Shown: one piece after another, positions 13,901-62,993 of the stretch
How the letters are laid out: the number at the start of each line of letters is the position of its first letter
Numbering within the stretch: position 1 is the stretch's first letter
Origin: Siphonodentalium dalli
Lineage: Eukaryota > Mollusca > Scaphopoda > Gadilida > Siphonodentaliidae
Direction: 5' to 3'
Length of the DNA: 64,000 bases
NCBI GenBank assembly: GCA_032622095.1
Contig: CP136061.1
Location: 84,170,324-84,234,323 of the forward strand
Program-made: the position numbers and the translations under genes
Notes under the pieces: model-generated
Told to the model about the DNA's origin: nothing
Database searches by the model: none
The model's input: the letters and a program-made list of their open reading frames with translations, nothing else

Positions 13901-16900
13901 TGATGCTAGCATCACCAAATTCACCCTCTGGGGACCTCATTCTGCAAATGACAGACACACTATCTCAAGGCTTGTGGATAAATAAGCTTTGTAGAATATT
14001 CTCTTGTTCTAGTTTCAGTGAATCAATGCCTATTTGATGAAATAAATTCTTAATTTCAATGTCGAGAATTTTTATTTTGCCAAAATCAGCCATTTTGTTG
14101 TCGTAAGGCCATCACTTCCACTTTCCATAATACTTATTTCTAGCTACATTGGGCAGGAATTGTGAATAAGTGACAAATTGTGAATAATTATTGGTTTTGC
14201 AGGAAGCTATTGATTTGTCGAGCAACGCATTCTTCGATGCGCAAGTAATTTCATAGGGGCGATTCATCACGTATGAAATAATTTATTCCATGGGAGACCG
14301 TAAGTTGATTGAAATGAAACATGGTGTAGTTATAACAAGACTGTTGTCTACAGAGTCCTTGGTAATGCTTAGTCAGTGAAAGTCAAACCCGATATTGTGA
14401 AAATAATAGGACTAATTGATGGCAATTGGCCTGTTAATCATATTTTGTTTACAAACGAAGCGAGTCTCTCCACATCTCACATGCAGTCACTGTTACCATC
14501 CAGGATACAAGATTGGAAACTGACAAGGTGCTTCAAGTGTATTTGAGGAAAAATAGCTACATTGTTAGTAGATAAATATGTGTTATATACACAATGTGTT
14601 TGTACCGATTCATGTATCATGAAAACGAATCATGAATCGGTACAAACACATTGTGTATATAACACGTTTATCTACCATTCGTGTGACAGAATCTACTACA
14701 CAAATTAGTTTAGGAGTTTTTTAAATAACAAAATCGTTGGAGCTTTCTTGAGTAAGTTCTCCCAAAATGCAAATGTAAGTGTCACATCATTATCTTGATT
14801 TGCTAAATTCTCCCAACCTGCAAGTTTACGCGAATATGCCTAACGGAAATTGAATTCAATTCTCTTGCACCTGCATTTTTATAATAATTATATAATAAAT
14901 ACTCCAACAAATATGTATTAGTTAATTTGTTATATGTTTTACCACAATACCCACGAAGAGGTTTTAATTTCTCACGCGATTGATGTGATGTCAATTCATT
15001 CATGATTTTGACCAGTCATGCGTGCCTTATACCGCAACTGCAGTAATGATACAGATGTCTATATCGCCAATTCGTTATCGCCAATTTTATCAGTGAATTT
15101 CATAGGAAATTGTAGATGAATTGAATGATTACCTGATCTTTCTCTGTCTTTTCATCAGATCCATATCTCCTCTTTATCTTTTCTTTAATAAAAAGACCCT
15201 TTACCAGCTTTTTCCAGTTAACGTAAACACGCTGCTCTCTCTTCTACAAGATAAAGATATTATCATAAACACGCTGCTCTCTCTTTTACAAAAATAATAA
15301 TGGTCGTTTGTTAAACTTATTATCTGAACATTTCCTAAAGGAACTACTCATCAATGAGTATTTAGTATAGAAAGGATTATATCAATTAAGACATCTCTTA
15401 TTCTGAGTTAGATATTTGCAATTTGCTTGCCTGCTGTGACAAGTAGAAATATCAGAACATTTCGAGCGCTGGAGATATATGCCGTGTTATTTATACTTGA
15501 GCGCTGGAGATAAAGGCTGTGTCATTTATACTTGTGTCGAGCGTGGGAGATATATGCCGTGTCATTTATACTTGTGTCGAGCGTGGGAGATATATGCTGT
15601 CATTTTTACCTGTGCTTCTTTCTCAATCATTATCTGCTGTTCATCATCCCATGCTAACAACAGAGCTTCTTTATTCTCTTCACAAACGACCCAACCATCA
15701 AACCTAGAATAGATAACAAACATCAAACATCTGTCCCCACAAACGACCCAACCATCAAACACAAACCACCCAACCATCAAACACAAACCACCCAACCATC
15801 AAACACAAACCACCCAACCATCAAACACAAACCACCCAACCATCAAACACAAACCACCCAACCATCAAACACAAACGACCCAACCATCAAACACAAACGA
15901 CCCAACCATCAACCTACAACTAATCATTAGCATAGCTCTGTCCCCACAAACCACCCAACCATCAAACCTACAACTAATCATTAGCATAGCTCTGTCCCCA
16001 CAAACCACCCAACCATCAAACCTACAACTAATCATTAGCATAGCTCTGTCCCCACAAACCACCCAACCATCAAACCTACAACTAATCATTAGCATAGCTC
16101 TGTCCCCACAAACCACCCAACCATCAAACCTACAACTAATCATTAGCATAGCTCTGTCCCCACAAACCACCCAACCATCAAACCTACAACTAATCATTAG
16201 CATAGCTCTGTCCCCACAAACCACCCAACCATCAAACCTACAACTAATCATTAGCATAGCTCTGTCCCCACAAACCACCCAACCATCAAACCTACAACTA
16301 ATCATTAGCATAGCTCTGTCCCCACAAACCACCCAACCATCAAACCTACAACTAATCATTAGCATAGCTCTGTCCCCACAAACCACCCAACCATCAAACC
16401 TACAACTAATCATTAGCATAGCTGTCCCCACAAACCACCCAACCATCAAACCTACAACTAATCATTAGCATAGCTCTGCTCAGAAAAGAGCTGTTAAAGT
16501 GACACAAGGACTTCGAAGTTGGTTCATGTGAATATGATAAATTTTTATAACAGTCTATAAAACTATCAACAACTACATTTAAAAATAAATAAATTTTGTT
16601 CTAATGTTTATTATTATCACTTTACCGGACGTTTTCCAGGGCATTAAAACACCATAATTACCGAGGTGCATTAACCGGAAGCGGGCGTTAATGAAACAAA
16701 TTAATGAACCCGCGGCCCGCATCCGGTTTGGGAAAAATGGTTTTGGACTCCACCTCGAATATGTATCCTATTTTCGTGTTATTATATATAGACACCCCGT
16801 ACAGTTCTGATCACTTAAGGGACCGCAGTCACCATGGTTGTCAGAAATATTTTATCAGAAATAAGCAGATGAGAAAATAGGTTCCCAATAAACTGAATAC

Positions 16901-21633: not shown

Positions 21634-21668
<35 letters not shown>

Positions 21669-24600
21669 TAGGCACATGCCCCCCTGGCTATGCGCCTGAA
21701 CAATTGTATATATGCGAGTAATAATATACATTATGTGTATCATATGGTTCGCCAGTACTGTCACGTTTTTGAGCGAACTGTCGCCCATACAAATCGGTTA
21801 CCTAATACTCTGCATGTTGGGTATAGAGTCTACACGATAATTCTCCATTGTACCGTTATCCAATCAAAATCGTCCTTGTATACGTTGTTTGAGGAAGATC
21901 GTCTTTATTTAATGGTAAAGGCATTGTTTACATTAAAAATACTAGTCGAATCAAAGATAACGATGCCGGTAATTGTCTCAATTAACTAACATATTTCCAA
22001 TAATTTTATTATATATTGACCAACAGTCGTTCGGAAAAAGGGCATCACCCGTTTTCGAACTAAGTATCGACTGAAGCAAAAGTTTTTCATTGTTGATTAA
22101 ATATCCTACAGCCCGATCGTTCTGTCAGCAGCCGAATCGATCTGTCAGCATATCGATTCTAAGGTCTTCCTGACCTGTTCTAGACATGATAGTCACACAA
22201 AAATGTTTTTATATTCTACTTCACTTTACTTGGGCCAAGTTAGGGCGAATTTCATTCTACTTAGGTCTTGGAACGTGATCTTGATAAGAAAAAATGCAGA
22301 AAATTGTTTTTTGAAAGAAACAAATTTTGATTTATTTTTGTCAACAAAAACTTTTGAAAAAGTAAAATAAACGAAAGAAATTGCTCCCTGGAATAACCGT
22401 TTATATTTTACACACCACATGACATTAAACATCTTGAATCAGTGTACCTGTAAGCACGAAACAGTTCTGAGATGTAGCCTATGCTAAAAAATTCAAATCC
22501 ACAAACGAAGGCATGCCTTTTACAAAAGGTGTGCTCGATTGAGTTTCTGTCTACCGGTGCCAACCGGTGCACAAAAAATAAAGTCCCAATGTTTATATTA
22601 AAAGATACGATAGGAAGGTCAATATTGAAACAGATAATTGACTTCAAACGTATAACATGGCTTCTAAATGTTAATGCAAGGGCATAATAATTATGAAACA
22701 TCGCCTTCACCCCAAACACGAATAATACAATACCAATATACAGAAGTCATGTCTAAATTTATCATAAATTTTACCACGAATTATCGAAAACTGGAGTCGT
22801 CCGCACACTTCACAGTAGCGTTATTTTCAGTGAAGAAAACAAAATCGAAATATAATGAAATGATTAGGTCTTATCTATATGCTTCACACAGTCTTTGTAA
22901 AGCTTTTTAATATATAAAGTACGAAGTATTGGTGTTTACATTTGAACCTTATTTGACACAATCCACGTCCATGTGTGCCTTATGGATCCTTATGTGGTAC
23001 CTATTTTTGGCCGCCATTTTGTCGATCCCAAAAATAAAATCTCGGAGCATATCTCGCGGCAAAATCTCGCGGTATTTCCCGCCGGCAATCGTCGTTATAG
23101 TCTCATGAGTTACTTCCCTTCAATCCGTCCGATCCGTACGTCTTATGATAAAGACGTACGTCTTGATATCCGGACTAATGTGGTATTTTTTTTCTGCGAC
23201 GGACTCTGACCACATTGAGACGTTCTGGACAAAATTATAATGTGGTTTACCACATAAACCCAAAATACCACATAAGGCACACTTGGACGCAGATTGTACA
23301 ACATAAGGTTCAAATGTAAACGCGGACGGACGGAAGGACGGACGGACGGAGGGCTCCACTATATACCCCCAAATCTCCATCGGAGATCGGGGGCATATTA
23401 TCAAGCTTTACGGTTTTATTAACGGCCCTCCATGAATTATTAACAGCCCTCTGGCCTATTAACGGCCCTTGACTGGTTAAAACCTTAGGGGCATGTTATA
23501 ACTCAAAACTATCACCAAGTATTCATAGTAATAATTTTGATGCCCATGAAAAACGTAATATTCCCTGGCACTAAACCTACAATATAAGTCTGTTAAAGAA
23601 TATAAGAAAAAATTATTAAAATTGTAAAAAATTGTAAAAAATAATAACAAATGATGAAAAATTGTTCGGCCAATGCATTCTCTTATATATGCGAGGCGAC
23701 CTATGGTTGACTCGCATATATAAGAGAATGCATTGGCACAGGGTATATGGGTTGATAAAAAAATCGGACTTGGCACTGAAAGGGTTAAAGTGGCATTACA
23801 GATCAAATTCAGGTTAGTCCAATAAGATACCAACAAAGTTCAATCAAAATTTGACAATAAATGTTACAAAAGGTCAAATTATTGAAACATAATCTGAAAA
23901 TAATATTTAGACTAAGATATTTGAACTTACAACACCATCGGTGATGTTTGTTGGCAAATCATTTTAACAGTTTTGTTACCATTTTAAACAATGGTTTAAA
24001 CATATGAAATGTCATTATTGAAGAATGAATATAAGGAAAACATTTCTCCATGATTTTCTCAGTGGTGATTTTTTTTAACAGACTTTTATCATTTTTGCAT
24101 TCTCATAAAAGCAGCTGATACGATTGTAGAATGCTAAAATTGATTCTCGCAAATTTTGAAGGATTTAAAGTCTGTTGACTTAAGGTGGGTAAAGCCATGA
24201 TGTAAAATCATATCCAATCATCGCCTAGTTATGACATCTGTGATGTAAATCAAATCAATCATCATTACATTGGGTGGGTGAATCCATGATGTAAACCACA
24301 TCCAATCATTGCCTAGATATGACTTACATTGGGTGGGTGAAGCCATGATGTAAACCACATCCAATCATTGCCTAGTTATGACTTACATTGGGTGGGTGAA
24401 TCCATGATGTAAACCACATCCAATCATTGCCTAGTTATGACTTACATTGGGTGGGTGAATCCATGATGTAAATCAAATCCAATCATCGCCTCGGCACAGT
24501 CAACACCAAGCTTCTTAGCAACCTTCTTTAGTCCAGGCACTGAAAAGTTTAAATGAAAATTCAAACAGTTGAAAGATCCTATAATATATTCTTAGATTGT

Positions 24601-27600: not shown

Positions 27601-30600
27601 GGAACCTCATTCTGCATGGCCTCATCTGCTATGGGAGACATAGACTCAGACTGAAGTTCTTAAATGGTGAATATTGTGATGTACACCTATTGGGAACCTC
27701 GATTATGCAATGTGTCGTCTGCCAATTTGGGGATATAGAGAAACTAAATTAAAAAAGAAATAGAATCTATGTGAAGAAGTTTCTATTGCAATTTGACATG
27801 AAGAAACTTTCCAGAGAAGATGAGGTCTAAGCTGAGATTTGAATGAAACAGTTGAGAAAAAAATATAATTGACTTACACCCCTTGAGATGAGCACAGCCC
27901 CTAGGCAACATCGATAGTTTATACATGTCCACATTACCAAACTCATTCTTTGGAACGATACCCTGAAAAGAGATAAAAATAAGAAGTTTCACCTAGGGCA
28001 CTGGCATACCCCTACTACGGTGCCAGATTAAACTATGAGCAAGACGGTACCAAAACTTAAAATAAACATAAAAATAAAAATGTTTTAACTTTTGAATGCT
28101 GTCATGATACCAAATTTCACTCAGATCAGATAACCCATGGCTGAGATATCTGCGTGGACGGACAAAAAAAATCACGATAACCAGAAAAACAAAGAAGGAT
28201 AACTCTAGAATGTAAAACAGGAACGTCATTTGCACCTCTTCAAATAATTGGCGATCCTTCATAACAAATTTCATTCATATCAGATAACCCATGGCCGAGA
28301 TATATTCCTGAATGGATGGACACACACGTCCGCACCCATGAATGACCACAAGTTGGGTTACTCAGTGTCCGTTACTTATTGGGCGCTCTTGTTGGGTATC
28401 AAAAGTGCTCTTGTTGGGTTGTTTTGGCATATGGCGCATTTGTATAACACGTGCTTCAAAACAACACTTCTAATCTGCTGCTTGGTGCAATAACGTCACC
28501 AAGCCTTGAAATAGTGTGTCTGTCATTTGCAGAATGAGGTCCCCAGAGGGTGAATTTAGTGATGCTAGCCTGCTATTTGGGGTAGCATCACTAAATTCAC
28601 CCTCTGGGGACCTCATTCTGCAAATGACAGACACACTATTTCAAGGCAATAATGTCACATGACACTATAAGGATAATGTCACATGATACTATATGGCGTG
28701 AACTGTCAAATTTAAGGGACTGACCATCTTTTGGTAAAATATTATGGACTCGGAAAAGTCCAAACCTTTGTTGGGTACTTTTCATTAAACACACAATAAC
28801 CATTTTGGACACTTTTAAGGGGTTTTTATGGAGTTCTACCCAACAGTCGAAAAGTACCCAGCAAGTACTCTTTCAGCCCACATTTTACCCAATATATGCC
28901 CTCTGGTAAACAGACAGACTGATGGACAAACCTCTGGTAAACACAGACAGACTGATGGACAAACCTCTGGTAAATACAGACAGACTGATGGATAAACCTC
29001 TGGTAAACACAGACAGACTGATGGACAAACCTCTGGTAAACACAGACAGACTGATGGACAAACCTCTGGTAAACACAGACAGACTGATGGACAAACCTCT
29101 GGTAAATACAGACAGACTGATGGACAAACCTCTGGTAAACACAGACAGACTGATGGACAAACCTCTGGTAAACACAGACAGACTGATGGACAAACCTCTG
29201 GTAAACACAGACAGACTGATGGACAAACCTCTGGTAAACACAGACAGACTGATGGACAAACCTCTGGTAAACACAGACAGACTGATGGACAAACCTCTGG
29301 TAAACACAGACAGACTGATGGACAAACCTCTGGTAAACACAGACAGACTGATGGACAAACCTCTGGTAAACACAGACAGACTGATGGACAAACCTCTGGT
29401 AAACACAGACAGACTGATGGAAACACAGACAGACTGATGGACAAAGTCAATCCAGTATACCCTTTTTGAAAGAAAAACAAATTGACTGATAATTTAGAGT
29501 GTTATCCATTCCATGACTACAGACTCCTGAAATTTTGCGAAAACCCTGTGCCAATGCATTATCTTATTTATTATACGCACAACAGTGAATTATAGAAAAA
29601 ACGCGTTTAGATAAATATCGATATCACCCAGAAGGGGATATAGAAGAATATACTTTCACACTAGCTTGCGCGTGCGACCGATTCACTTGCGAGTACCAAT
29701 ACTGTTTCCGGTTTGTACTAAGGTCAAAGTGAAAGAACCCATTGTAATATTCTAAATTATATTATATTCACTGATACAGTTATAATTAAAATCTATTTTA
29801 TGTTGAAATTCGACATATTTATGGCGGAAATAAAGGGAAGAATACGGGAACTACATATTTATATTCTGCGGATGGTGAAGTAGCATTGTGAGAACAGGCA
29901 TTGATCAGCTGATGGCTTCAAAAATTATGCATCGATTGAAGACGATTGTGATATCATTTAACGTCTTAAGTGGTGAATTTCTTTGGAAATGCGTATAATA
30001 AAAAGAATATCTAGTGTTTTTTTTAGTGGATACCGAAAAATACGTCATTCGTGACCGCGACAAATGTTTATTTTGGCTCGCGGCAAGCCGCTCGCGAAAA
30101 TAAACATTTGTCTCGCTCACTCATGACATATTTTTCGGTATCCACTCAAAAACACTAGATATCCTCTATATATGTGAGTCTTCCATAGGTTGATGGTAAA
30201 CATCGCAAAGAGTCAAAGTATTGAAAAATATTCTGAAAATCATACTTAGAAAATTATTTACAACGCAATTTTTATGTTTGCTGATAAATCACTGTAACAG
30301 TTTTTTTTTAATAAAAATGTTTCAATGTGCGAAATTTCATTACTGGAGAACTATCAATAACAAGAGATGGACTGCCGTCCGGTGCATACCCCCTTTGTGG
30401 AATACGACCCAGTGTGGGCTTATCTATAAATCATATTCCCAGATATTTCCAGATAAACAAACTTGAATAACTCTAGAATGGAAAACCCTCTATTGAATGT
30501 CCTCATAGTAGTGAACATCCATACTATATTTCATTGAGATCCAAGCACTACTGTTCAAGTTATAACCTGAATACCTGAATAGACATCAGACGGACCAAAA

Positions 30601-33600
30601 AGCCAACATTTCCAGATAAACAAAGATGAATAACTCAAGAATAAAAAACACGAACAAAACGATTGAATGCCATATTGAATGTCCTCATACAGTAATGCCC
30701 TAAGTAATCGACTCCTTAACTACAGCAGAATTATGGGTAACTTTTCAAGATTTAGTGGGAAATATGGCTTGTTGCCATTCATCGGAAAGCTCTCGGGGAG
30801 AGCTTTCTGATGAATGGCAACAAGCCATATTTCCGACTAAATCCTGAAAAGTTACCAATAATTCTGCTGTGGTTAAGGAGTCGATTACATAGGGCATTAC
30901 TGTAGTAATGAACATCCATACCAAATTTCATTGTGATCATCGGACGGATGCCCCAACGGAAGGACGGATAGTTGCAAAAATAAAGGGGGTATAATGAATA
31001 TAAGAAGAAAGTTAGCATATTCACATTTACCCACTGTGAGTGCCTTCGATTCCTTTAAAACCAGGGGGGGGTGGGGAAAAGTTTTTTCCGGGCACGTATG
31101 CCGGGGTGGGTGGGTGGTCGTTAGGACCAACAAACAATTTTTTCCGCAACTCAAAAATATTTTTCCTGCAAGTCTTTTTGACTGTTTTTGCAATGAGTTT
31201 GGCTTAAAACACATCTATATGTCAATATTAACATAAATGACAAATTTCATGATGATCAGACAAACAGTATATCCTGTAACGCATGCTAATGGATTGAATT
31301 TTGAAATTCAAGATGGCTGCTGGCAGCCATGTTTTTTTTTGGCCGAATGACCCCAAAATGACTTGTTCCTATATACATGTCAATGTTAACATCCATGACT
31401 AATAGTATGCACAGAAATTCATATACAGCAGTTTACAGTGAATTTACACCCGAAAATCTCTGTTTTAGTGTTAAAAGGGGGTGGGTGTAAAAAAATGGTC
31501 GGAAATAACTGCCGAAAACAGAAAAAAATTTGGACGCGGGGGTGGGTGGGTCCCAACAAGGGTCGAAAGTAAACAATCAGCATACGTGCCTGAAAAAAAA
31601 TTCCAACCCCCCCCCCACCCCTGTTAAAACTGGAGAAAATAAAACTAAGGTAATGATCTTACGTCAACAGCTTCACCGGGCTCATAGTCCATCGTCTGCC
31701 ACACACCAAATATTCCAACAAGACCATCAGATGCTTTATTCTGTGAACAATAAGAAACAAGTTTATTTCAAACTGATGGGACTATCCCAGTGGGACTAAC
31801 GAAAACCCCGCATGGCAATTGGGCTACAGTAAAGGTAGCCATGCATTTTTTATATAATTTATTCTCTTTTATTTTTAAAGTTTGTACAACAAATATATTA
31901 CATAATATGACCATACGCTAGCATAATAACGAACCAAAGCTAAACCACTCACATGAGGATAGCTGCGGCTTTTAATTAAATTTTTTTTTTATCAAAATCA
32001 GACCTATGGCCGACTCGCATATATAAGAGAATGCATTGGCACAGGGCCGTTCTGTTGGGTAAAGGGTTAATGAGATGGACAACACCATATAGACCCGTCA
32101 AAAAGTTTCCACAGCGGTCCCCAATAAATTTTTTGAAAGTCGGTCGAGAGTTCCATAAAAATTCCTCAACTAGTTCATTATCTATATTATATTCAACCAT
32201 CGATTTTGAAAATGAAAACAAGTCTACAACCAATGTTCTCAATTAATGTGTGATGGTGCTACTGGACCATGTGACAAAGTTCTACTTTCGTTTGATGGGG
32301 AACTGCAGCCGGGCATACTAACATATTTGTTTAAAAAAAAAAAGGTTTGCATAGGGGTAAATATCTATGCCAAATTAAAACAAAATTTACAGGAAAATGA
32401 AGGAATATAAGCTCGGACAAAATTATGCATGTTGCAAAATGTTTCTAAGTCATAAAAGGGGGATAACACCACTAAAAGAAGTCGGACGGACCTCTTAATC
32501 ACAGGTGCACAGGTTCCCATACTACTAAATATCTGTGCCAAGTTTTAAAAACTTCATAACAATCAACAAAGAAATGAATGAATAGAATAAAATTGTGTAT
32601 GTCGCGATGAATTTCTAAGTCAAAAAGGGTGATAATTCTCCTAAATTAAGTCAGTCCAACCTCTTAAATCGCAGGTGCAATTCCCATGATGGTAAATGTT
32701 TGTACCAATTTTCCACAGCATTTAACAAAATTATGTAAGCCTATGTGTTAATTTAGCGATCAATAGCTGCTGACCTTGCAAATAGAATGACTGCCCTTGG
32801 ATTGTGAGGATTGGAGAAGACAGAAGTGACGTAACAATGAAGGCGCAGAAGTGATTTTAGCGATTGGAAATTTGTGCGATTGTGTAAAATATATATTGAA
32901 CTGGGAACAACAACGAGATCATGGGCCCAAGTAGAGGAGGAATCCAGAGTAAACTCTGCTACTGACATTTGTTAACCATGCCTGCAAATAGCGTGTCTGT
33001 CATTTGCAGAATGAGGTCCCCAGAGGGTGAATTTAGTGACGCTACCCCGCATAGCGGGCTAGCATCACTAAATACACCCTCTGGGGACCTCATTCTGCTC
33101 AGGACTTCAACTGCTATGGCAGACCTAGGATCAGATTGAAGTTCCCCAGTTGAAGTTGGTGATGTTCACCCATTGGGTGCCTCGATTATGGATTTTATCT
33201 TCTGCAAATTAGGGGATATAGAAACTTCCCAGATGGGAAAACGTAACTAAAAACAATGTTAATTTGATACCATAGATACTTCCCAGAAGATGAGGCCTAA
33301 GCAGAATGAGGTACACAGAGGGTGAATTTAGTGATGCTAGCCCGCTATGCAGGATAGCGTCTCTAAATTCACCCTCTGGGGACCTCATTCTGAAAAGGAC
33401 AGACACGCTATTTGCAGGCTTGTTGTTAACAGGATCAGGTTTTGATCCTCGGACCTCTCGGCCTATTACCCAGAGGTCCAAGGATCGAAACCTTGCTCTG
33501 TTACCAAATGTTAGCAAGCCTTGAAATAGTGTGTCTGTCATTTGCAGAATGAGGTCCCCAGAGGGTGAATTTAGTGATGCTAGCCCGCATAGCGGGCTAG

Positions 33601-36600
33601 CATCACCAAATTCACCCTCTGGGAACCTCATTCTGCTGAGGTGTAAGCAGAATAAGGTCCCCAGAGGGTGAATTTGGTGATGCTAGCCCGCTATGCGGGC
33701 TAGCATCACTAAATTCACCCTCTGGGGACCTCATTCTGCAAATGCTTGAATGTTAGTAGCAGAGCTTTCCCTGAAAAACAACAAGAGCATTGCTAGGGAG
33801 TGGCAAAATACGCTCCTGATAATTTCAACAATGGGCCATAACTCCGGTGAAAATTGGCCGGCTGAAGCCAAATTTGAACTTGTCCTGTATTTTGGGCTAG
33901 TAAACTCAAATACCAAATTTTATGCCATTCAGTTCAGACTTAAAGTTCTCATCCAGAAACAAATAATAAGGGCAAATGCCAACAAAAAGGGCTATAACTT
34001 GGGTGAAAATTGGCGGGCGGAACCCAAATTTGAACTTGACCTGTATTTTGGGCTAGTAAATTCACATACCAAATTTCATTTCATTCAGGTCTGACTTACT
34101 AAAGTTCTCATCCGGAAACGAAAATTAAGTGCAAATTCCAACAAAAAGGGCCGTAATTCCGGTGAAAATTGGCAGGCGGAACCCAAATTCGAATTTGACA
34201 TGTATTTTGTGCTAGTAAACCCACATACCAAATTTCAGTCCATTCAGTTGAGACTTACTACAGTTATAATCCGGAAAAAAAAAGCAAATGGAAGGACGGA
34301 CCAATAACATAAATTTTTTTTCTCAAAACGGGCATATGAAAACAAAGAATGGTGCATTACCCAACCATATGTTAGTAACAAACAGTCCAGATAGCTGCAC
34401 TTTATCAACCTTAATTTGAATTGTGAAAAATTAGACAAGAATATATAAACAGAAAGTACCTTCCTCGACTTTGACTTTACCATCTTGTATGGGACTTCCC
34501 CAGGCTACAAATAAAAAGAAAGATAATTATTCAAGTTGGTCCTGATATTCGATTTGAACTTACATTCAAAGTTTAATTTTCAAACATTCAGATGTCTTAA
34601 ATTATAAAGCTAGACATTCTTTTTTTGTTTTCCATCAATAACTCCTTCTCATTAATAACAAGGGCTGTGTACTGAAGATGTCGCTCTTCTTTTGTGTATT
34701 TGTGAATATTTTATAGTATGATCGATTATGCATACTATACCTTTATAGATCTCGCTTCTTTCAGCCAGGTTTCTTTTGAATGAAGCTTTAAAATAGAATG
34801 AAGAAATAGTAAGAGAGATAGTACAAAGAGATAGTACAAAGAGATAGTACAAAGGGGAAGAGAATCAATTTAGGAATCAGGAGGTTAACTTACCATGTGT
34901 ACAACCTCTCCCCTAACAGATAATCTAGCCACATCCTTGTGAATGGGGGAAGCCTAATAGAAATCAGGAGGTTAATAACTTACTGTGTGCACACCCCCCC
35001 CTATCAGACCATCTAGCCACATCCCTGTGAATGGGGGAATCCATTTAGGAATCAGGTAAACTTACCGTGTTCACACACACCCCCCCCCCAACAGACCATC
35101 TAGCCACATCCCTGTGAATTGGGGAATCCATTTAGGAATCAGGTTAACTTACCGTGTGCACACCCCCCCCCCCCCAACAGACCATCTAGCCACATCCCTG
35201 TGAATGGGGGAATCAGGTGAACTTACCGTGTTCACACACCCCCCCCCCAACAGACCATCTAGCCACATCCCTGTGAATGGGGGAATCCATTTAGGAATCA
35301 GGTTAACTTACCGTGTGCACCTCCCCCCCCAACAGACCATCTAGCCACATCCCTGTGAATGGGGGAATCCATTTAGGAATCAGGAGGTTATCTTACTGTG
35401 TGCACCCCCTAAACAAACTTACTGTATGCACCCCCCCCCCCCCAACAGACCATCTAGCACATCCCTGTGAATTGGGGAATCCATTTAGGAATCAGGAGGT
35501 TAACTTACCCTGTGCACACACCCCCTCCCCAAACAGACCATCTAGCCACATCCCTGTGAAAGGGGTAATCTATTTAGGAAGAATCAGGTGGTTAACTTAC
35601 CGTGTGCATCCCCCCTCCAACAGACCATCTAGCAACATCCCTGTAGGAATCAGATAGCTAACTTACCGTGTGCACCCCCCCCCCCCCCCCCCCATCCCCA
35701 ACAGACCATCTAGCCACATTCCTGTATGAATCAGATAGCTAACTTACCGTGTGCATCCCCCCCTCCAACAGACCATCTAGCCACATCCCTGTATGAATCA
35801 GATAGCTAACTTACCGTGTGCACGCAATCTCGAGAATAGACAGGTTCATTTTTCTTAAGATAACCTACAGGAATCGATGAATCGGGATAGATCGCCTCAA
35901 ATTTCAGCAGGTGTCTCCTCAGGAAGTACCTAAATTAGAAACAAGAGAGATAACTCTATAATAGTATCGATGAATCTGGATAGATCACTTCAAATTTCAG
36001 CAGGTGTCTCCTTAGGAAGTACAATGTACCTAAGTGAGAAACAAGAGATATAACTCTATAATAGTATCGGATGAATCAGGAGAGACGGGAATACGCTAAC
36101 AATTGTCATGTTTAATTTGAGGATTAACCCTTTCTATACTAAATACTCATTGACGAGTAGTTATCCAATAGGAAATGTTCAGATAATAACATTTGACACA
36201 TCCAAAGGAGGCTTAAGCAAAATGAAGTCCCCAGCGGGTAAATTTGGTGATGCTAGCCCACTGTGTGGGATAGCCAGAGACGTGGCGACAGGGAAGGTTT
36301 GGGGAGGTGTCTCACACCCCACCAACTTTGGTCAAAATTTTCAACAATTGCAAATGTCATACCTGCCAAAACAATAGTTGGAAATTTCACACCAACAATA
36401 GGTTGAAAATGTTCTTGTAGTTTGATTTCAAACAATTTATTGGAAGGAATTAATTGTTTTTGGAACAATATTTGTATATTTTCCTATTTTTGGTAAAAAC
36501 TTTGGACTGAAATTGTCATCAGTTGGAAATTTTCCAATCTTAGGGGGGGGGGGGGGGGGGGGGGTGGCAGGTTGGACATTTCCAACACTTGGAAAGCTTG

Positions 36601-42600: not shown

Positions 42601-45600
42601 CATACTTTGCAGTCATGTCTTTGATCGAACCATCTGTAAAGACATCATACAGTAATAATGTTCCCTCAATGTTATCAAGCGATGTCGATAATCTATATAT
42701 ATAACAAGAGTAGGATCTGTCTGTCACAATACATCATACAGTAATAATGTTCCCTCAATGTTATCAAGCGATTCGATAATCTATATATATATCAAAGAGT
42801 AGGATCTGTCTGTCCGTCTGTCTGTTTGGATGTTTCTCCCAGACCCCTAGACCGATTACTACCAAATTTGGTGCGGTGACGCGGGGTACCCTGGCGGAGG
42901 TTATAACAGTGTTAGTTTTTCAAAATTTTGATTTAAAATGATTTAATTAAATAAATAAAAAAACACAAATAAAAATAAGCTCACTGTGGCCCACGCCATA
43001 CAATGGGTATAAGTCCACTATAGGCTTGGCTTATTTCAGAATCAAATAAGTCAAATATGAACCTATGTGAATATTTATTTCCAAATGTGCAGGGGCAGCA
43101 GGCCCCTCCGATGCTGAATAAATTCACCTGAAGGGAGCCTGTTTCAGCTAGTAAAACATAAATTCACAATACATCATTCAGTAATAACGTTCCCTCCATG
43201 TTATCAATCTATTCTGATAATGAAATGTAACATCACAATCATTGTTTAGGACCTATAACCCATTACACGAGAAGCCTGGATATGGAATGAGGTCCTCAGA
43301 GGGTGAACTGGGAAGTATCTATAGTCTCAAAATAACATTGTTTGTAATTACCTCTGTTCAGTTTCTATATCCCCTAATTTGCAGAAGATAAAATGCATAA
43401 TTGAGGTGACTAATGTGTGAACATCACAACTTCAACTGGGGAACTTCAATCTGATCCTAGGTCTCCCATAGTAGATGAGGCCTAAGTAGATTGAGGTGAA
43501 TTTGGTGATGCTAGCCCACTGTGCGGGATAGTGTCACTAAATTGACCATCTGGCGACTTCATTCTGCAAATGTAGGATGCACTATTTCCAGGCTTGCGAC
43601 ATGCACGTCTGTGCAACAAATAAAATTGATCCAGGCTTAACTCTTTCAACACCGAATTTACAGAGGTAAATTATCCAGGACACCGGGTTTACAGCAGTTT
43701 ACATGGAAATTCTTTGTCTCACATGTGGGGCATTCATACTAGTATTTATAGATGTGGTAGATATGGCACCCATATATTGTCATGACCAGTAACAACTAAC
43801 TACCCATCAATTTGCACTAACTGCTGATGGATGACGTCATATAATAACTTTATTTGCAATATTTCACCACATAAGTATATTGACCAAACTCATTTTCAAA
43901 TAGTTAGTATTATATCCATCACATGTCGTGATTTTAGCATATGTAATTAGAAGGTGAACAATGAGCATAATGATGAGAACAGACCAATAGTATGCCAAGA
44001 AGGCGTTATTTAACTAAAATAGACCCATTATCCCTCATTTAGGCCCATGTGTATTCAACTGTGATTATGCTAATGAATTATGAGTAACTCTCCAAAAACA
44101 ACTGCCAATGATCTCATTGCGTTCCCAACATGTTTATGGATGTCAATAGCATGCTTTCAACGTGCACTCGTAGCTATTATTATTGAAGTCGAACTATTGC
44201 ACGGCATGGTGAATTTCATAACATTACGTCGAAAATAGGAGACACTAGATGGATATCACAAAGAACACGTCATTAGAAAGGGCAACAATCTTCTTTATTT
44301 CATAAACATGTGTTATCGACATGTGTTTGTGATAAACAATAACAAACTAAATCAATCGGTACAATTGCATCTGATTAAAAACACCACACCTGTCAGCATT
44401 GTTTCATCAACATTTTTTGGGAAAACCCAGGAAAACCCCAAAATAGTAATTGTGATGTCATACATGTGCTGTCTATATTTAGGCCGGGAACATCTCATTG
44501 TGACTGTACTTGTCAGGTCTGCATGTTCAACAATCAATTAGTATTGATACAGAATATCACCCAAATGATATCTAAGTCGCCAACCAATACACAATCATTA
44601 GCATATCCCCGTAGATATGGTATTATTGACTGCTAATCCCGAAAATTATTCTCCGCCAGCTAAAGCGGGCTGCGGTGGTGAACGTAAATTAGCGGGCTGC
44701 AGTGTTGAAAGAGTCAATGCTCTTTATTGATCATATAATTTATTAGTTCCCCTTTAAGTTATCTGAGATCAAACATCAACGTCAAACTTCAAATACGCCC
44801 ATCCCATGGCATTCCCCTGGTCAGGTGAGTGGTGACCCATCTGTACCAATTTTCCCACATATCTTCTAAGCTCACAAGGAACACTCTTTATTGCTCATAT
44901 TTGCTCCTTTAAGTCGTCTGAATTCAACGGCATCTAACTCTTGACACTCTATGGGTCAATTTACCCCCCCCCCCCCCCCCCCCCCCCCAAGGTTTCAATT
45001 TTCACCGACCAGATTACATCCATTTTGTTATGTAATTAAAAAATTATTTTATTGTATTAATAATTTTAGCGCCCTTTTAAGATGTCTGATGTCAACGGGA
45101 CCTATCTAATTTTCCCGAGTCAAATTACCTCTATATACAAATTTTCATCTCCAATCCAGCCGATCAGTTATTTATTACCGCCGCTAGATAAAAGCCAATT
45201 GCGTCAGCCTTTCAAGTTTGACACTGCGTGTCTCTAGTAGTCCTTCATGTGACATCACATGAGGGAACATTAACTATTCAGACTGCATAATCCGTGATGG
45301 AACTTTAAATCGACATAACTTCAGTTACGGGTGGCCTATTACAAAAAACAATTTCGCCACCGTGTTCATTGGATTAGTGGCAATCGATAACGATAAAAAG
45401 AAATCTGGACCGGAGTAATCCTTTAAATCCGGTTACCGCGATTTGATTGGCCTGCTAACTTTGAAGCTCAGATACACCATTGTATTTATATGCACAGATT
45501 AACCTCTTGTGGATATTTAATCTGCGCCGTTTTCAAAAAGAAGAGTAGTGAACATTGTCAAATGATTATATTTATGTGATAGACATTGGTATGGGAATTG

Positions 45601-48600
45601 TTGGAGATAAATTTTAATACCATAATTGCCTATTCTATTGTGTGTATAACACCTATTTTGTAAACTTCATCTTTACACCCTATTGTAGGTATACAGCTTC
45701 CTACTGTGGGTATAAATGTCTACTGTGGGAGTAAATGTTCAAACGTAATTTCATGTGTTAAATGTTTATACCCATAGTAGAATTACATCATATTTAGCAA
45801 AAATAGTTCCTTAATTTGGAACATTCATTTAAAATTGGAAGGGTCAGGAAATAAATTAGATATGAGAAAAATTTCCTGCATTTCAATCCAATGTAGCTTG
45901 TTAGTGTTATATGAATTAGGAAACATATGAATGGTAATTCCAAGTGACTGATCGATCGGAAACAGTCTGACATCACGACGTAAATGTATGTATCACTACG
46001 CGTGACGCGACGCACATAGCGTCGTGTAAAGTAAACAGCAGAGTAGTTGAATTCGTTGAACAGATACAAAAAATAATAATTATGGAATAAATAAAATACA
46101 CGCATAGTAGCCGTGAGTACAAAATTTTCACCACTCGTAACCACTCGCTAACAAGTTCGTGGTTAAAACCACAATTCCAATCGTGTTGAAAATTTGGTAT
46201 TCTCGGCTACTATGGGTGTATTCTATATATATTCATATAACAATTATAATTGTCTCACTGTATGACAAGACATGACAGAGCTTGGGCGACTGTATATGCT
46301 ATATTTACAATTTTCTCACCGTTGCTGTACGACAAGACATATGAAAGAGGTATCGTAGCATGGTCCTCAAATTCTTCGTGCTTGCCGATAATGCCCCTCG
46401 AACAGTCTATGGCTGTTGAAGAAGAAAAGGCATGTGTCATTATATCAGGAGAACAACGGACAAGATACATGGGAATCATAGCTTCCTGAAATTTTGCGAA
46501 AACTCTGTGCCAATGCATTCTCTTATATATGCTAGTCTCCCATAGGGAGCCTCACGTATATAAGACAATAATTGGCCTAAAAATATTAACCTAGACCTTG
46601 TAAGTCCCTATGGAACACTCGCATATATAAGAGAATGCACTGGCACAGGGTCTTTAATGAGGCACCAACATAGCTCCCGTCATGAAAGGGTTTACACTTT
46701 CAATACTAAATACTCTATTAACCCTTTACCCAACAAAACGGCCAAAACTGGCCAAATAAGGCTTCAACAGCCTAAATTATCTTGGGTCTGTCTCAATAAA
46801 ACCATACAAATATGGATATCATTGGAACCGGCTCCTTGACCACATTGTGATAGTTACAGTTATGCCCTGTGCCAATGCATTCTCTTATATATGCAAGTCG
46901 ACCATAGGTCGCCTCGCATATATAAGAGAATGCATTGACCAATTTTTAATGTGTTAAGCCAATGCATTCTCTTATATATGCGAGGCGACCTATGGTCGAC
47001 TCGCATATATAAGAGAATGCATTGGCACAGGGCCCTCCTGTTGGGTAAAGGGTTAACAAGTAGTAGAACAGTACGTCGTTTGTAGAACTTATTATCTGAA
47101 CAATTTCCCACCAATAAATTGGACTCCTTCTATACTTGTATTATCTGCCGTCTGCTTATTTTTCCTGGAAACCCCTCCAGATGAATAATAGACCATTCCA
47201 ATGGATACTTTTATAGCCGAGTGGGAGAAACCATTAAGTATAGAAAGGGTTAACTTACTTATCCATTCTTCCATTGAAACCATGTATACCTCAATCGCCA
47301 TGTCGGTATCTGTAATGTTAACACAGAGTGTACATCCCTGCAAATCAATAATAGACCATTCCAATGTACACATTTTAACTGACTATCCATTTAGAAAAGA
47401 AAGGGTTAAATCACAGTAATATTATCTGTCGTCTGCTTTTATCACCTTATCATTCCTCCAAATCAATAATAGACCATTCCGATGTACACATTTTAAATGA
47501 CTGGGAGAATCCATTTAGTATAGAACGGGTAAAATCAGTTAAATTATCCACTGTCTGCTTTTACCACCAAATCAATAATAGACCATTCCAATGTACATGT
47601 TTTAACTGACTGGGAGAATCCATTTAGTATAGAACGGGTTAAATCACAGTAAATTTATCAGTCGTCCCATTTTATCACCTTAATATCCGTCCAAATCAAT
47701 AATAGAACATTTCCAATGTACAAGTTTTAACTGACTGGGAGAATCCATTTAGTAGAGAAAGGCCTATTAATGAAGCTATTTTTATCCCAGAACAGAGCAT
47801 GAAATGTGACAAAATTGAGAAGTAAATTGTACAGATACACAAATCAAGTTACCATCCCTTTTAATGGATGACAAGTCCTATCCACGCCTATCAGGGTATT
47901 GAATAAATCCACGCCTATCAGGGTATGAACCAGGTTCACCAGCAGTGGATAGCTTGTTTGTCTAATAGCAGGGTTTCCACTTGGGTAAAAATGTAGGGAC
48001 AGTAGAAGCTAGGATAGAACTGGCTGACCATGGTTAAAATGTAGGGTCCGTAGAACCTAGGATATTACAAGCCGACCATGGTTAAAATGTAGGGTCCGTA
48101 GAACCTAGGATATTACAAGCTGACCATGGTTAAAATGTAGGGTCCGTAGAACCTAGGATATTACAAGCCGACCATGGTCAAAATGTAGGGTCCGTAGAAC
48201 CTAGGATATTACAAGCCGACCATGGTTTAAATGTAGGGTGCGTAGAAACTAGGATACGACGGGCTGACCATAGTGAGTTGTATGAACATTTTGAAATTCC
48301 ATGCCCAAAACCCCCCTATTTCCTTACATCAGAGAATAATGCTGGGCGGTTCTATTGGGCTAAAAATACCGCCGCAATTTGAAAATCACCCCACATTACA
48401 CACAATTACATGTTATTTTCATTAGTAACAAGAAATTTAACCTAATTTATCTTTTATCATCTATGAACAAAAGACAACCCTGGTCATCGATACATAGATG
48501 TCATGGTAATATCGGATCAATCTAATCCTGAGCACGGAATTACTATTTATGACCCGCCATATCAAATCCAGTCGTAAGTCGGGATTTTTTTTACCCTGTG

Positions 48601-54600: not shown

Positions 54601-57600
54601 ATAGTGGACTAGTACTGTATAAGTTGCTTTAAAGACTCACTCGAGATTTCTAACATTGCTCTCTTCATTAGAATCACAGAAATATTTGCTAGTATTCTTT
54701 GTTTGTTTTGCTTTGCCTTTTTTGGTTACTTTATCCTTGTTATTTGGCTGCTTGGCGAGTTTCGGGTGGTTTTTCTTCCCACTAGACATCTTCTTTTCTC
54801 TACCATCTTCAGTCATGTTCTTGTGTTTCGTTTTAGCTGAATGTTCTGACTGAGTACTGCTTGAAGTATTTGACCTTGACCTAAATCCTGGAAGTGGAGG
54901 GAACGTTTCCTTTCCTTTTGTTTTCTGGCACAGTTCGTTCTGAAATGATAATTAATATGAAAACAATTAAAGATGGATTATCTCTTCATATAACAATTTT
55001 GGAATAGTTTTGTGGGTATAAAATAATAAATATGAATTGAAGAATGCGACCCGGAAATGCTTCTATCAATTAATATTAATTATATTTCGAATATTTTCTG
55101 ATATAATGCAATGATTAAAAGGGACCATTATATTTGCTTTATTTTTAGAACAGACCATTCAGGCGATAAGAGATTCTTGGAGTGCTCCCATTGCTACACA
55201 CCAAACATCAAATGTCTCAGGTGGATTGTTTCTATTGTTATATTCTATAGTAGTGATGTGACGATACGGGGGTTATCGGTAAAAGCCGATAGCCGATATT
55301 TTCAGTAGAATTATCGGCCGATCCGATACAGATACCGATAAGTCTTGTACGTGAACCAAACTCCATATCAATTTGTCTTTTAAATTACATCACTATTCTA
55401 TAGTTACAAGCGATAATTAATATAATTAACGTTGTTTATTGGTGACAAAATTACACAATAAAATTTCTGGTCTCTGTTAACAGTAACCACTATTGGTCGT
55501 AAGCTAAATGTTCACCCATATTTGACCAGAAAATGTTTGAAATATAATCAATATTAATCGATAGAAGCATTTCCGGACAGGGGTCTTCGATTTATACCTA
55601 ATATTTTATATTCAATTTTTTTTACGAGAACAGTTGTAGATTAGGTCCTACGTAATATACGGGCATGGCTTTATAATAACAACACATCGCGATACATATA
55701 ATAATAACACGATAAAGACGTTTAATTACGAGAACTGCGATGTATTTCGACGAAGTTTTGCATTTTTCCATAACGCGACCAACTTCAAAAGCCGTGATCG
55801 AATTCATGATCGCTTTGCGCGTGCAAACTTTATATACCACTGTTGTGTATCTATGCGTTGTCAATGAGTTACCACGTGATCATGTGCTATGCTTCTGTTT
55901 ACATGTGACAATCATGTGATCGGACCGATGCTCACGTGACTTCGTCTACAACACAAAATCTTCGGCTAACTTCGGAATTTTTTTTAATCGTTATCAAAAT
56001 AACGATTGGCGGCCGAATATTTGATTATATGCGCCTAATGGACATTATATATATATTATCGGTATATTGAAAGAAAATACTATATATTTTTTCAGGATCA
56101 TATTCCTTTAATATCAATGTAAAAGATTATTAAATATAAAACAATGAGATTTTGAAGATGTATACTTAATATTGTAGTGGGGACAATATAGGTCAACAAA
56201 TACATGAAATACTGGTACATAGACTTTAAAGATGGTCAATCTCTTTATAAACATGTGTTATATAGTTACCGGGGTATAAAGATGGTATATCTCTTTGTAA
56301 ACATGTGTTATATAGTTACCGGGGTATAAAGATGGTCTCTCTCTTTGTAAACATGTGTTATATAGTTACCGGGGTATAAAGATGGTCTATCTCTTTGTAA
56401 ACATGTGTTATATAGTTACCGGGGTATAAAGATGGTCTATCTCTTTGTAAACATGTGTTATATAGTTACCGGGGTAAAAAGATGGTCTATCTCTTTGTAA
56501 ACATGTGTTATATAGTTACCGGGATATAAAGATGGTCTATCTCTTTGTAAACATGTGTTATATAGTTACCGGGGTATAAAGATGGTCTATCTCTTTGTAA
56601 ACATGTGTTATATAGTTACCGGGGTAAAAAGATGGTCTATCTCTTTGTAAACATGTGTTATATAGTTACCGGGATATAAAGATGGCCTATCTCTTTGTAA
56701 ACATGTGTTATATAGTTACCGGGGTATAAAGATGGTCTATCTCTTTGTAAACATATATGTGTTATATAGTTACCGGGGTATAAAGATGGTCTATCTCTTT
56801 GTAAACATGTGTTATATAGTTACAGGGGTATAAAGATGGTCTATCTCCCATTAATCGCCTCAAATTTTATCTTCTGCAAATTAGGGGATATAGAAACCTC
56901 CCAGAAGGGAAAAAGTAACTAGAAACAATGTTAATTTGAGACTATAGATTCAAAAGATGAAGCCTAAGCAGAATGAAGTCCCCGCTGTGCGGGATAGCAT
57001 CACTATATTCACCCTCTGGGGACCTCTTTGAATACTCACATGTGGCACTTTGAATGTAACAGGATGATGAGACATGACGAGGCGAGCATCGAGATGCAAC
57101 ACTCTTAATATAATGATGAACACCTGAAAATAACCAGGAAATATTAATACAGATTAATATAATGATGAACAACTGAAAATAACCAGGAAATATTTATACA
57201 GATTAATATAATAATGAACAGCTGAAAATAACCAGGAAATATTTATACAGATTAATATAATGATGAACACCTGAAAATAACCAGGAAATATTTATACAGA
57301 TTAATATAATAATGAACAGCTGAAAATAACCAGGAAATATTAATACAGATTAATATAATAATGAACAGCTGAAAATAACCAGGAAATATTTATACAGATT
57401 AATATAATGATGAACGGCTGAAAATAACCAGGAAATATTTATACAGATTAATATAATGATGAACGGCTGAAAATAACCAGGAAATATTAATACAGATTAA
57501 TATAATAATGAACAGCTGAAAATAACCAGGAAATATTTATACAGATTAATATAATGATGAACGGCTGAAAATAACCAGGAAATATTTATACAGATTAATA

Positions 57601-60600
57601 TAATAATGAACAGCTGAAAATAACCAGGAAATATTAATACATATTAATATAATAATGAACGGCTGAAAATAACCAGGAAATAGTAATACAGATTAATATA
57701 ATAATGAACGGCTGAAAATCACCAGGAAATATTAATACAGACTAATATAATAATGAACACCTGAAAATAACCAGGAAATATTAATACAGATTAATATAAT
57801 GATGAACGGCTGAAAATAACCAGGAAATATTAATACAGATTAATACAAGAGGTGGCATCAGAGATGCTGTGTCTCGTTTTCGGTGGCTTACCGCCGGTGG
57901 CTACCGCCAATTGGTGTGCATCAGTATCGGTAGACTAATTAATAGGTAAAATCGAAAAATGACTAATTAAGGGCCATAACTCCATCAAATTTTATCGGGC
58001 TAGGCTGGTTTTCGAACTCGTCCGAAATATTCTTGGCAAGTATGTCTATTCCAAATTTTAAACAAATCGGAGAACGTTTGTTGAAGTTATCGCGCTAACG
58101 AGCTGACAATTCGTGAAAAATGACTAATTAAGGGCCATAACTCTATCAAATTTTATCGGACGAGGCCGGTTTTCGAACTCATCCGAGATATTCTTGGGAG
58201 ACACCTGTATACCAAATTTCAATCAAATCGGATAACGTTTGTTGAAGTTATCGCGCTAACGAGCTGAAAATTCATGAAAAATGACTAATTAAGGGTCATA
58301 ACTCTATCAAATTTTATCGGACCAGGCCGGTTTTCGAACTCATCCGAGATATTCTTGGGAGACACCTATATACCAAATTTCAATCAAATCGGATAACGTT
58401 TGTTGAAGTTATCGCGCTAACGAGCTGAAAATTCAAAGGGCCATAACTCTGTAATAAATGTGCGGACGAACCCGATTTTTTGTCTGCAGCTTACGAGCAT
58501 GGATATTTTTTAATCCGTCAATAAACGGTTGAGTTATAAGCAAAACACGCCCGCCCGCCTGCCCGCCCGTCCGCCCGCCCGTCCGCCGCCCACCGTCCCT
58601 CATCAAACTATAAGTCGAGTTTTGGAAAAAAACTCGACTAATAATAATGAACACCTGAAAATAACCAGGAAATATTAATACAGATTAATATAATGATGAA
58701 CGGCTGAAAATAACCAGGAAATATTAATACAGATTAATATAATGATGAACGGCTGAAAATAACCAGGAAATATTAATACAGATCAGGCCAATATAAATAA
58801 ATTGCTAGATTTACACCCAACTTTTTCAGAAAAATGAGTCGGAAGGGCAAATTAATTTTTTTATATTTTATTCATCTTAACATAAGTGGTGATGGACAGT
58901 TCTAGATATTGAAGCAGTATCCTATCTAAGGAGATTTAGATTATCAAAATACCAAAATAATTGTCAAATTATAAGTCAACAAGGACCATAACTCTGGTTA
59001 AAATAGGCGGACGGGACCCAAATTCAAACTTGACCTGTATTTTGGGCTAGTAAACTCACAAACCAAATTTAATTCCATTCAGTTTAGACTCACTAAAGTT
59101 ATCATCCCGAAATGAAAATTGAGTACAAATTCCAACAAAAAGGGCTGTAACTGGTGTAACTTAATCTGTATTTTGGGCTAGTAAACCCACACAACAAATT
59201 TCAGTCCATTTAGATTAGACATACTAAAATTATCATCCGGAAACGAAAAAAGTGAATGGACAGACGGAAAGGACCAATAACATAATATGTCGTTTTTTTT
59301 CAAAACGGGCATGAAGGCAGCTGCGGTGGGGCAGCATTAAAGATTCTGTAGCAGTGCATTCTCTTATATATACATAGAGAGCCTCGCATATCTAAGAGAA
59401 TGCACTGGCCTACAAGGTGAAGGTAAATATTGTTAAGCCAATGGATTCTCCTATATATGCGAGGCTCCCAATGGGAGACTCGCATATATAAGAGAATGCA
59501 TCAATTGGCACAGGGTTTTCAAAAAATTTCAGGAAGCACCTGTTATGGAAGGGTTTACAGTAAAATTTATTTTGACATGCATCTACTATTTTCAAAATGG
59601 CAAACGCAATAGTTTAATGAGGTAAAAGTTTTGTTGACCAAAATGTTTTTGAGGATTTTTTATTTTATGGACTATTGGACAACCATGAATAAATGTACGT
59701 TTGCAGTAGATTTCAGTCGATATATCATTACTTTTATTATCAATATGATCATAGGTAACTCACCATAACATAACTGTTCTCATATATGTAACTCACTGTA
59801 ATATAATTGTTCTCACACCGTAATAATTGTTCTCATAAAGATAACTCACCGTAACAATAGTTCTCATATAGCAGCTCACCATATAATAATTGTTCTTATA
59901 TCAGGGATGAGAATGGCTGAGAGTCAAAAACACTGAAATGACAGCCGAAGGCGGGGGAGGGTATGGGAGGGGGTGTCCCCCTCCCCTAGATGGGGGGTTT
60001 GGGGGTTCTCCCCCAAGAAAATTTTAGATTTTTCAGTGCCCTTAGAGCGAATCTGGGCTATTCTGAAGCCAAAATTATAGTTGGAGAATTACTAACATTT
60101 TGTATATGAATTCAATGAAAAATTATGTTAAACACATCATGCATCACATTACAGGTAGTTTTAGTACTTTGTTATTGGTACCCATATTTCAGACTCACTA
60201 CTGGTAGGGTATATTAAGCATGCATAATAAAGAAAATGTACTCATCGCTTTGGTTTCCTCAATATTCTGTCCAATGGTAATGTCTATCACACTTTCAACA
60301 CAAACTATTTTAGTCTTTGAATGTAAGGTCCTCCAGGTAAAGAATACAGATCATCATCAAGTCACCATTTGTTCATTATTAATCACATATATACAAATGT
60401 ACATTGACCACTTTACAGGTTAAATTTTCACTGACAAATCTTTCTTTTTTTCACATTTACTGAAAGCTGCTCCAGGGCTCTTTTTCTACAGTTTTTCTTC
60501 TCTCTCTGCTCGTGTTTAGCTAGTTCTTCTTTTTGCTCTAACGCAGAGGCAGCCTTCGTTTTAGCTTTGGAGAGAGGAATACTTCGTTTGATCTTGAGTT

Positions 60601-62935: not shown

Positions 62936-62993
62936 CTGAAGCAGTCTGTTATACTGTAAGTGGAATTATAGTATGGTCATTAAAATATATATA

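Follow-up and report, generated by a model that had tools for sequence, protein, structure and literature searches.

Mirage-like minisatellites at exon-intron boundaries of an XPC gene and of blindly sampled genes in the scaphopod mollusc Siphonodentalium dalli

Introduction

The closest described counterpart of the arrays treated here comes from amphioxus; the original paper on its Adh gene is, according to later citations, that of Canestro from 2002. As far as the accessible parts of two publications go, so-called mirages are minisatellite-like tandem duplications of exon-intron boundaries that occur in Adh3, in the globin genes BflGb6 and BflGb9, in troponin C and in PGBD5, are unstable in copy number, are spliced normally according to RNA evidence and have been proposed as a source of new introns (PMC3087553; PMC3902484). 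In human genes of segmental duplications, internal tandem repeats at such boundaries can change the intron structure, according to the accessible part of that study (PMC2812944). A model by Rogers, as told in the available text of PMC3087553, derives intron gain from the tandem duplication of AG/GT segments, and the accessible part of PMC4974935 presents the RdRp gene of potato as a case of intron gain by tandem duplication. Among the open-access matches listed, the human genes (PMC2812944) are the sole case of boundary duplications outside cephalochordates; nothing further to the point was listed there on duplicated splice sites in molluscs or elsewhere, and in the accessible part of PMC7931591 nothing on tandem repeats was found.

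The preliminary description of the DNA analyzed here knew of no described class for its arrays. However, this class already exists in the mirages of amphioxus, and the present set of arrays probably belongs to it. Measured against the accessible descriptions of mirages, the unit likewise spans the boundary and holds both exon and intron bases (here at six of the eight XPC edges and in 12 sample arrays), donor and acceptor boundaries are both hit, unit length varies by boundary (10-160 bp there, 22-182 bp here), and AG or GT is kept in many but not in all units (here in 70 of 78 decoys). Copy number varies among mirages; the two assembled copies of one array here, which may be alleles or paralogues, have 25 and 8 + 4 anchors. 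In contrast to amphioxus, the host is a mollusc with a genome of 2.2 Gb instead of a cephalochordate, and the evidence consists of 12 crossings in three blindly sampled gene families with a measured excess over shifted junctions. Furthermore, RNA evidence of normal splicing is reported for the mirages, whereas for the present arrays normal splicing is presumed from the DNA. The human repeats, in the accessible part of PMC2812944, are minisatellites at exon-intron boundaries as well, but differ in that copy number changes between paralogues and half of them lie in coding sequence. The Rogers model and the potato case, as far as their accessible accounts go, share the duplication of gene segments in head-to-tail arrangement, but yield a new intron in this way, whereas here introns already present are extended from their ends.

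Materials and Methods

The window, a stretch of 64,000 nucleotides (C1:84170324-84234323), belongs to an assembly of 2.2 Gb in nine contigs. XPC exons were located through similarity to human XPC, the reading frame and GT/AG splice sites; the human XPC query of one homology search, and part of the query of another, came from outside the window.

Since the window had been picked for the pattern, an independent sample is the real test. This sample was chosen blind to repeats and comprised 115 exon matches, which belong to P4-ATPases, SLC12 transporters and kinesins. Its first part (P4-ATPases and SLC12 transporters; 89 exons, 221,624 bases) used all 44 matches of one family search and 45 of the 49 matches of the other, four of a near-identical paralogue being omitted. 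For the second part, the kinesins (26 exons), the selection rule was fixed before search and sequence retrieval. From the 123 matches listed we took the first 25 without internal stop by E-value, plus one neighbor, which was added from a retrieved piece with an E-value above the pre-set cut; flanks were 1250 bases a side, the rule fixed beforehand having said 1300. The myosin family search returned mostly recent duplicates and was left out of the sample; mutually similar matches to the myosin heavy chain form a large cluster at C4:274.2-275.5 Mb and elsewhere on C4, many of them with a TAG inside the 376-435 match. Joined myosin exons scored highest against chains attributed to scallop (407 bits) and squid (395 bits), followed by one attributed to tarantula (354 bits) and by vertebrate Myosin-7 (343 bits), a ranking that fits a mollusc. 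A family search with PF14830 (molluscan haemocyanin), run without a positive control, gave no match.

Splice sites were called with a home-made score, which 146 junctions of the first and 44 of the second part passed. The TRF score threshold of at least 100 was chosen after the first part had been seen, one acceptor at locus L003 was moved by eye, and arrays at stop codons (L060, L072) were left out of the crossing counts. In the junction-shift null all junctions were shifted within their loci in 3000 trials. In our view the appropriate tests are the single-unit and shift tests restricted to local arrays, because dispersed repeats arrive ready-made and because an array of n copies samples one unit of ancestral sequence. 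The frequency with which junctions lie inside arrays was dropped as a test: tandem arrays make up 25% of the XPC gene (12,048 of 47,821 bases), and therefore such an inclusion is weak evidence.

Results

The minus strand of the window contains most of an XPC/Rad4 gene, as the preliminary description had proposed. We found 14 exons, running from 62953 to 15133 (Table 1). Exon e matches the Rad4 domain PF03835 with 32.3 bits, which is over the cut-off, and further exons are collinear with human XPC (phmmer). One open frame spans exons d to n and another one exons a to c, thus at least one XPC exon is missing between c and d. A second PF03835 match lies outside XPC (L001, C3:75562535-75562795; 39.1 bits, in an open frame of 442 codons).

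Table 1. Exons of the XPC gene and copies of their edges, in positions of the window.
Feature	Position	Strand	Remarks
Exon a	62891..62953	-	donor 62891; acceptor cttacag/exon, donor exon/gtgagt; in-frame join to b; a+b aligned with human XPC
Exon b	57040..57123	-	acceptor 57123; human XPC homology
Exon c	54641..54939	-	linker; placed by frame and splice sites only
Exon d	46320..46412	-	acceptor either 46412 or 46485
Exon e	42478..42633	-	carries the PF03835 match
Exon f	39608..39665	-	homology, frame, GT/AG
Exon g	35815..35929	-	acceptor 35929, donor 35815
Exon h	34741..34785	-	homology, frame, GT/AG
Exon i	34460..34504	-	homology, frame, GT/AG
Exon j	31663..31740	-	homology, frame, GT/AG
Exon k	27878..27962	-	homology, frame, GT/AG
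Exon l	24446..24539	-	donor 24446
Exon m	15610..15703	-	acceptor 15703, donor 15610
Exon n	15133..15243	-	acceptor 15243
Exon a donor array	62620..62922	-	33 bp units, 8 anchors; TRF
Exon a donor array, second piece	59751..59900	-	4 anchors; beyond the 2.7 kb insert (about 59901-62620)
Exon b acceptor array	57105..57845	-	49 bp x 15.1; 18-19 exon bases per copy; TRF
Exon b acceptor array, second piece	58641..58783	-	3 units
Exon g donor array	34862..35822	-	units about 73-112 bp (~87 bp); 8 exon bases TGCACACG/gtaagt
Single duplicate of exon g acceptor edge	35973..36073	-	upstream of exon; about 50 exon bases
Exon l donor array	24265..24491	-	59 bp x 3.8; 44-46 exon bases per copy; TRF
Exon m acceptor arrays	15738..16478	-	22 bp x 8 (exon bases only) + 54 bp x 10.9 (AG + 22 exon bases)
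Exon m donor array	15462..15614	-	40 bp x 4; about 5 exon bases; TRF
Partial copy of exon n edge	15266..15291	-	single; AG lost

The eight positions named beforehand as splice edges each coincide exactly with an end of a placed exon, its last or its first base. That all eight are tandemly copied holds for six of them, where true arrays copy the junction (donors of exons a, g, l and m, acceptors of exons b and m), whereas the acceptors at 35929 and 15243 have one extra copy each. Four junctions were crossed by TRF directly (the donors at 62891, 24446 and 15610 and the acceptor at 57123), and the arrays of the 35815 donor and the 15703 acceptor were added by inspection. As described before, the arrays are built of exon edges together with splice sites, and unit length differs from edge to edge. 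Two further regularities proposed for them have exceptions: 8-55 exon bases per copy do not fit the 15610 donor with its five or so, and the splice dinucleotide, said to be present in every copy, is intact in 70 of the 78 decoys covering it (18 arrays: six from XPC, 12 from the sample) but gone from the copy of 15243.

At the exon g donor the true site and its neighboring copy agree in 52 of 53 aligned bases, and the duplicate of the exon g acceptor agrees in 86 of 93, with gaps of 1 and 7 bases. The partial copy at exon n comprises 26 aligned bases with one mismatch, which destroys the AG. All 14 decoys found in the exon b acceptor array have an intact AG, the CAG/GT of the true exon m donor reads CAA/GT in the three copies found, and the arrays at the exon m acceptor repeat the first 22 bases of that exon. 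Two other repeats stop just short of an acceptor, namely an 89 bp duplication (42642-42814) 8 bases from exon e and a 25 bp array (34793-34849) 7 bases from exon h. Part of the repeated exon sequence encodes conserved protein, among it a 17-letter stretch that aligns with ITGFDFHGGYSHPV of human XPC. Because the translations of several such stretches share residues with human XPC, the exons are the source of those arrays and not their product.

The exon a region occurs a second time about 73 kilobases away (L104, C1:84304150-84307000). Its upstream flank is 96% identical to the window over 771 bases, and exon a is identical at 63 of 63 bases. The donor array of exon a has 25 anchors there (C1:84305957-84306773), compared with 8 + 4 in the window, and it is continuous, without the 2.7 kb insert; the acceptor array of exon b runs into a gap of 100 N. 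No second full-length match to the exon c region was found among the 40 candidates scored out of 2498. L104 represents either a second haplotype left in the assembly or a partial duplication, and in both cases the arrays are present in two assembled stretches with differing copy number. The insert itself (window 59901-62620), which L104 lacks, contains three open frames of more than 200 codons, which look transposon-like by eye.

In the independent sample, 12 arrays cross a splice junction, nine by the strict rule and three by inspection, a step which the shuffles did not receive. Ten of these junctions come from the first part (eight strict; L027 and L056 by inspection) and two from the kinesins (one strict; L099 by inspection). 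Nine of the crossed junctions are donors and three acceptors; the XPC edges with copies, single copies included, are four donors and four acceptors. One of the arrays, L003, repeats exon bases that encode GDGANDVSMIQTAD, a hallmark of P-type ATPases, so that here too the array derives from the exon; the two matches of this array outside its locus are presumably paralogous exons, although this is a guess.

In this sample, the frequency at which locally born arrays cross splice junctions is several times that predicted by shifted junctions. Eight of 38 local arrays scoring at least 100 do so (L003 excluded), compared with a mean of 1.42 under the junction-shift null, and 0 of 3000 shuffles reached eight; with scores of at least 50 the values are 8 of 69 and 1.91 (p = 0.0013). 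Once all 119 arrays are taken, dispersed ones included, the excess becomes marginal (nine strict crossings against 5.05, p = 0.06). Placement of single units in the first part gave 8 of 33 local arrays scoring at least 100, with L003 counted as local, against 1.35 (p about 1e-5). If arrays were placed at their full length instead, the first part yielded 8 against 3.33 for local arrays scoring at least 100 (p = 0.012) and 8 against 7.69 for all arrays (p = 0.51; inclusion of the inspected ones gives 10, p = 0.25). The pre-declared kinesin sample, small as it is, was not significant alone (1 of 6 local arrays scoring at least 100, 0.25 expected, p = 0.23). The association is beyond chance for local arrays of other genes, and the proposed scan for overlap of arrays with exon edges, run here on the 115 exons, found an excess for local arrays and a marginal one for all arrays. 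The strength of the enrichment depends on taking single-unit and shift tests on local arrays as the proper ones.

Within the XPC gene, with each array represented by one randomly placed unit, 4 of 15 local arrays scoring at least 100 cross a junction against 0.53 expected (p = 0.0013); for all 31 arrays scoring at least 50 there are four TRF crossings against 1.20 (p = 0.028). The density is higher than in the sample, with 8 of 28 junctions (single copies included) against 12 of 190 (p = 0.001), where the L099 donor falls outside the 190. This difference is partly due to XPC having been picked for the pattern. The near ends of 29 local sample arrays with a score of at least 100 and a measured distance lie inside the exon in eight cases, within 50 intron bases in five, at 50-100 bases in none, at 100-200 bases in two and beyond in 14. 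The donors of L027 and L056, though tallied within the first 50 intron bases, are crossings on inspection.

In the 18 arrays the copies drift like neutral DNA, with no overall sign of splice sites being kept, removed or translated. Decoys match the true copy at 0.949 in the dinucleotide, 0.906 in the rest of the splice core, 0.929 in the exon part and 0.934 in the intron part. Distinct changes in the exon part fall on codon positions 1, 2 and 3 in 28, 22 and 32 cases (15 arrays), a fairly even distribution on which coding constraint on the copies was rejected. Unit lengths range from 22 to 182 bp between loci, and those divisible by three (8 of 18) are near the chance third. Weakened decoy donors occur in single arrays (L016 and the exon m donor). 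Four two-copy arrays show exact microhomology of 2, 6, 2 and 1 bases, one of them notable; L060, one of these four, sits at a stop codon and not at a splice junction. A GC-driven origin was rejected, as 23 non-crossing local arrays have a GC content of 0.373 compared with 0.391 for their loci.

Discussion

We consider it probable that these arrays are boundary-crossing minisatellites of the mirage kind, which start as duplications of splice junctions, grow by slippage or unequal exchange, are tolerated because the exon-proximal site is used, and then drift neutrally. A short segment spanning the junction would duplicate head to tail, perhaps via short direct repeats on its exon and intron sides, for which the two-copy arrays are only suggestive. 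Slippage or unequal exchange would subsequently let the copy number grow and shrink. If the exon-proximal splice site stays intact and in use, the extra exon bases would leave with the intron. Afterwards the copies drift as ordinary intron, as seen in the 18 arrays. Of this scheme the anatomy, the neutral drift and the excess in the sample are observed, the other steps inferred.

The tolerance by splicing that the preliminary description had offered as a cause is plausible, but it falls short of explaining the excess over purely intronic arrays, because purely intronic duplications are equally harmless to the protein. Our leading, if weakly held, explanation for that excess is that duplications arise more frequently at the junction itself, and not that selection favors spare splice sites. 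The main rival to a raised duplication rate is a longer survival of arrays beside exons, given that deletions cannot enter the exon and selection holds one copy there. This would fit the over-representation of both crossing arrays and arrays ending 0-50 bases from an exon. However, protection from deletion should fade over typical deletion lengths and not end within about 50 bases, and with 0 of 29 near ends at 50-100 bases, small as these numbers are, we regard longer survival as an unlikely account.

One might also argue that tolerance is all there is: duplications would strike all non-coding DNA equally, and those at junctions would be noticed through their recognizable exon bases. Arrays that lack exon bases are indeed frequent as well: in XPC, 11 of the 15 local arrays scoring at least 100 do not cross a junction by TRF, of which five belong to the arrays of exons b, g and m and six are unrelated. 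The marginal excess among all sampled arrays points the same way. Yet tolerance by itself predicts about 1.4 crossings among local arrays scoring at least 100, where the strict rule found 8-9, and an even distribution of distances, where the observed one peaks at the junction. We thus doubt that tolerance suffices.

Selection could also retain the extra splice sites as back-ups or as decoys that regulate splicing, the latter having been suggested earlier for XPC. In favor of this, the dinucleotide is kept in 70 of 78 decoys, and an intronic minisatellite of C. elegans is over-represented near alternatively spliced regions, according to the accessible part of that study (PMC4039745). However, decoy splice sites change about as fast as the remaining unit, dinucleotide and splice core being no better kept than the rest, and use of a decoy would shift the frame for 10 of 18 unit lengths. 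Nor do weak true sites seem to be in need of back-ups, since donors with arrays score 3.73 on average (n = 7) and those without 4.09 (n = 64; p = 0.78). Retention by selection is therefore improbable, and a role of decoys in regulation is not supported.

That the arrays are an assembly artefact is very improbable. Assembly is hard here, as L104 ends in a gap of 100 N inside the acceptor array, but substitutions distinguish the copies, the same arrays stand in two separate assembled stretches with different copy numbers, and the pattern recurs in unrelated genes. Finally, although 40 of 94 arrays of the first part are dispersed (L003 set aside), it is hardly credible that transposon-borne or dispersed satellites inserted by chance at exon edges, an origin largely refuted by the coding bases of their own gene which the crossing arrays hold, and contradicted by searches (skipping very common words) in which the arrays at the exon l donor and the exon m acceptor match nothing but their own locus, while those of exons a and b match the XPC locus and its copy some 73 kb away but no other place.

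The known cases, among the open-access matches listed, amount to a handful of amphioxus genes. Recurrence of mirage-like arrays in a mollusc, in several unrelated genes picked blindly and above chance for local arrays, suggests a recurrent process and not a lancelet curiosity. Three questions thereby become testable: by what route introns gain length, how splicing can disregard a dozen nearly perfect copies of its own signal in the vicinity, and whether DNA at junctions has an unusual tendency to duplicate. A tentative extension, to which we give less than even credence, would be that the splice junctions of this lineage are birth hotspots of minisatellites, that introns throughout the genome expand outward from their splice sites and that the arrays form a reserve of splice sites. 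If so, they would offer ready-made splice sites for exon shifts or intron gain.

The phenomenon may extend to coding-noncoding borders that are not splice sites. In the last exons of SLC12 genes, two arrays apparently lie across the stop codon, one at L072 (527-904; 93 bp x about 4) and one at L060 (1458-1502; 22 bp x 2).

Repeats of other kinds were observed along the way. Dispersed families with tandem units of about 150-175 bp occur in the window (4090-5346, 11981-12503, 33833-34283 and 57954-58435) and at many sampled loci, and arrays of 22 bp x 2.2 and 103 bp x 1.9 likewise recur as dispersed families. At 50397-52378 of the window, an 18 bp unit is repeated about 110 times in tandem and the strand skew is strong, with a GC skew of about -0.5 over 50001-52000.
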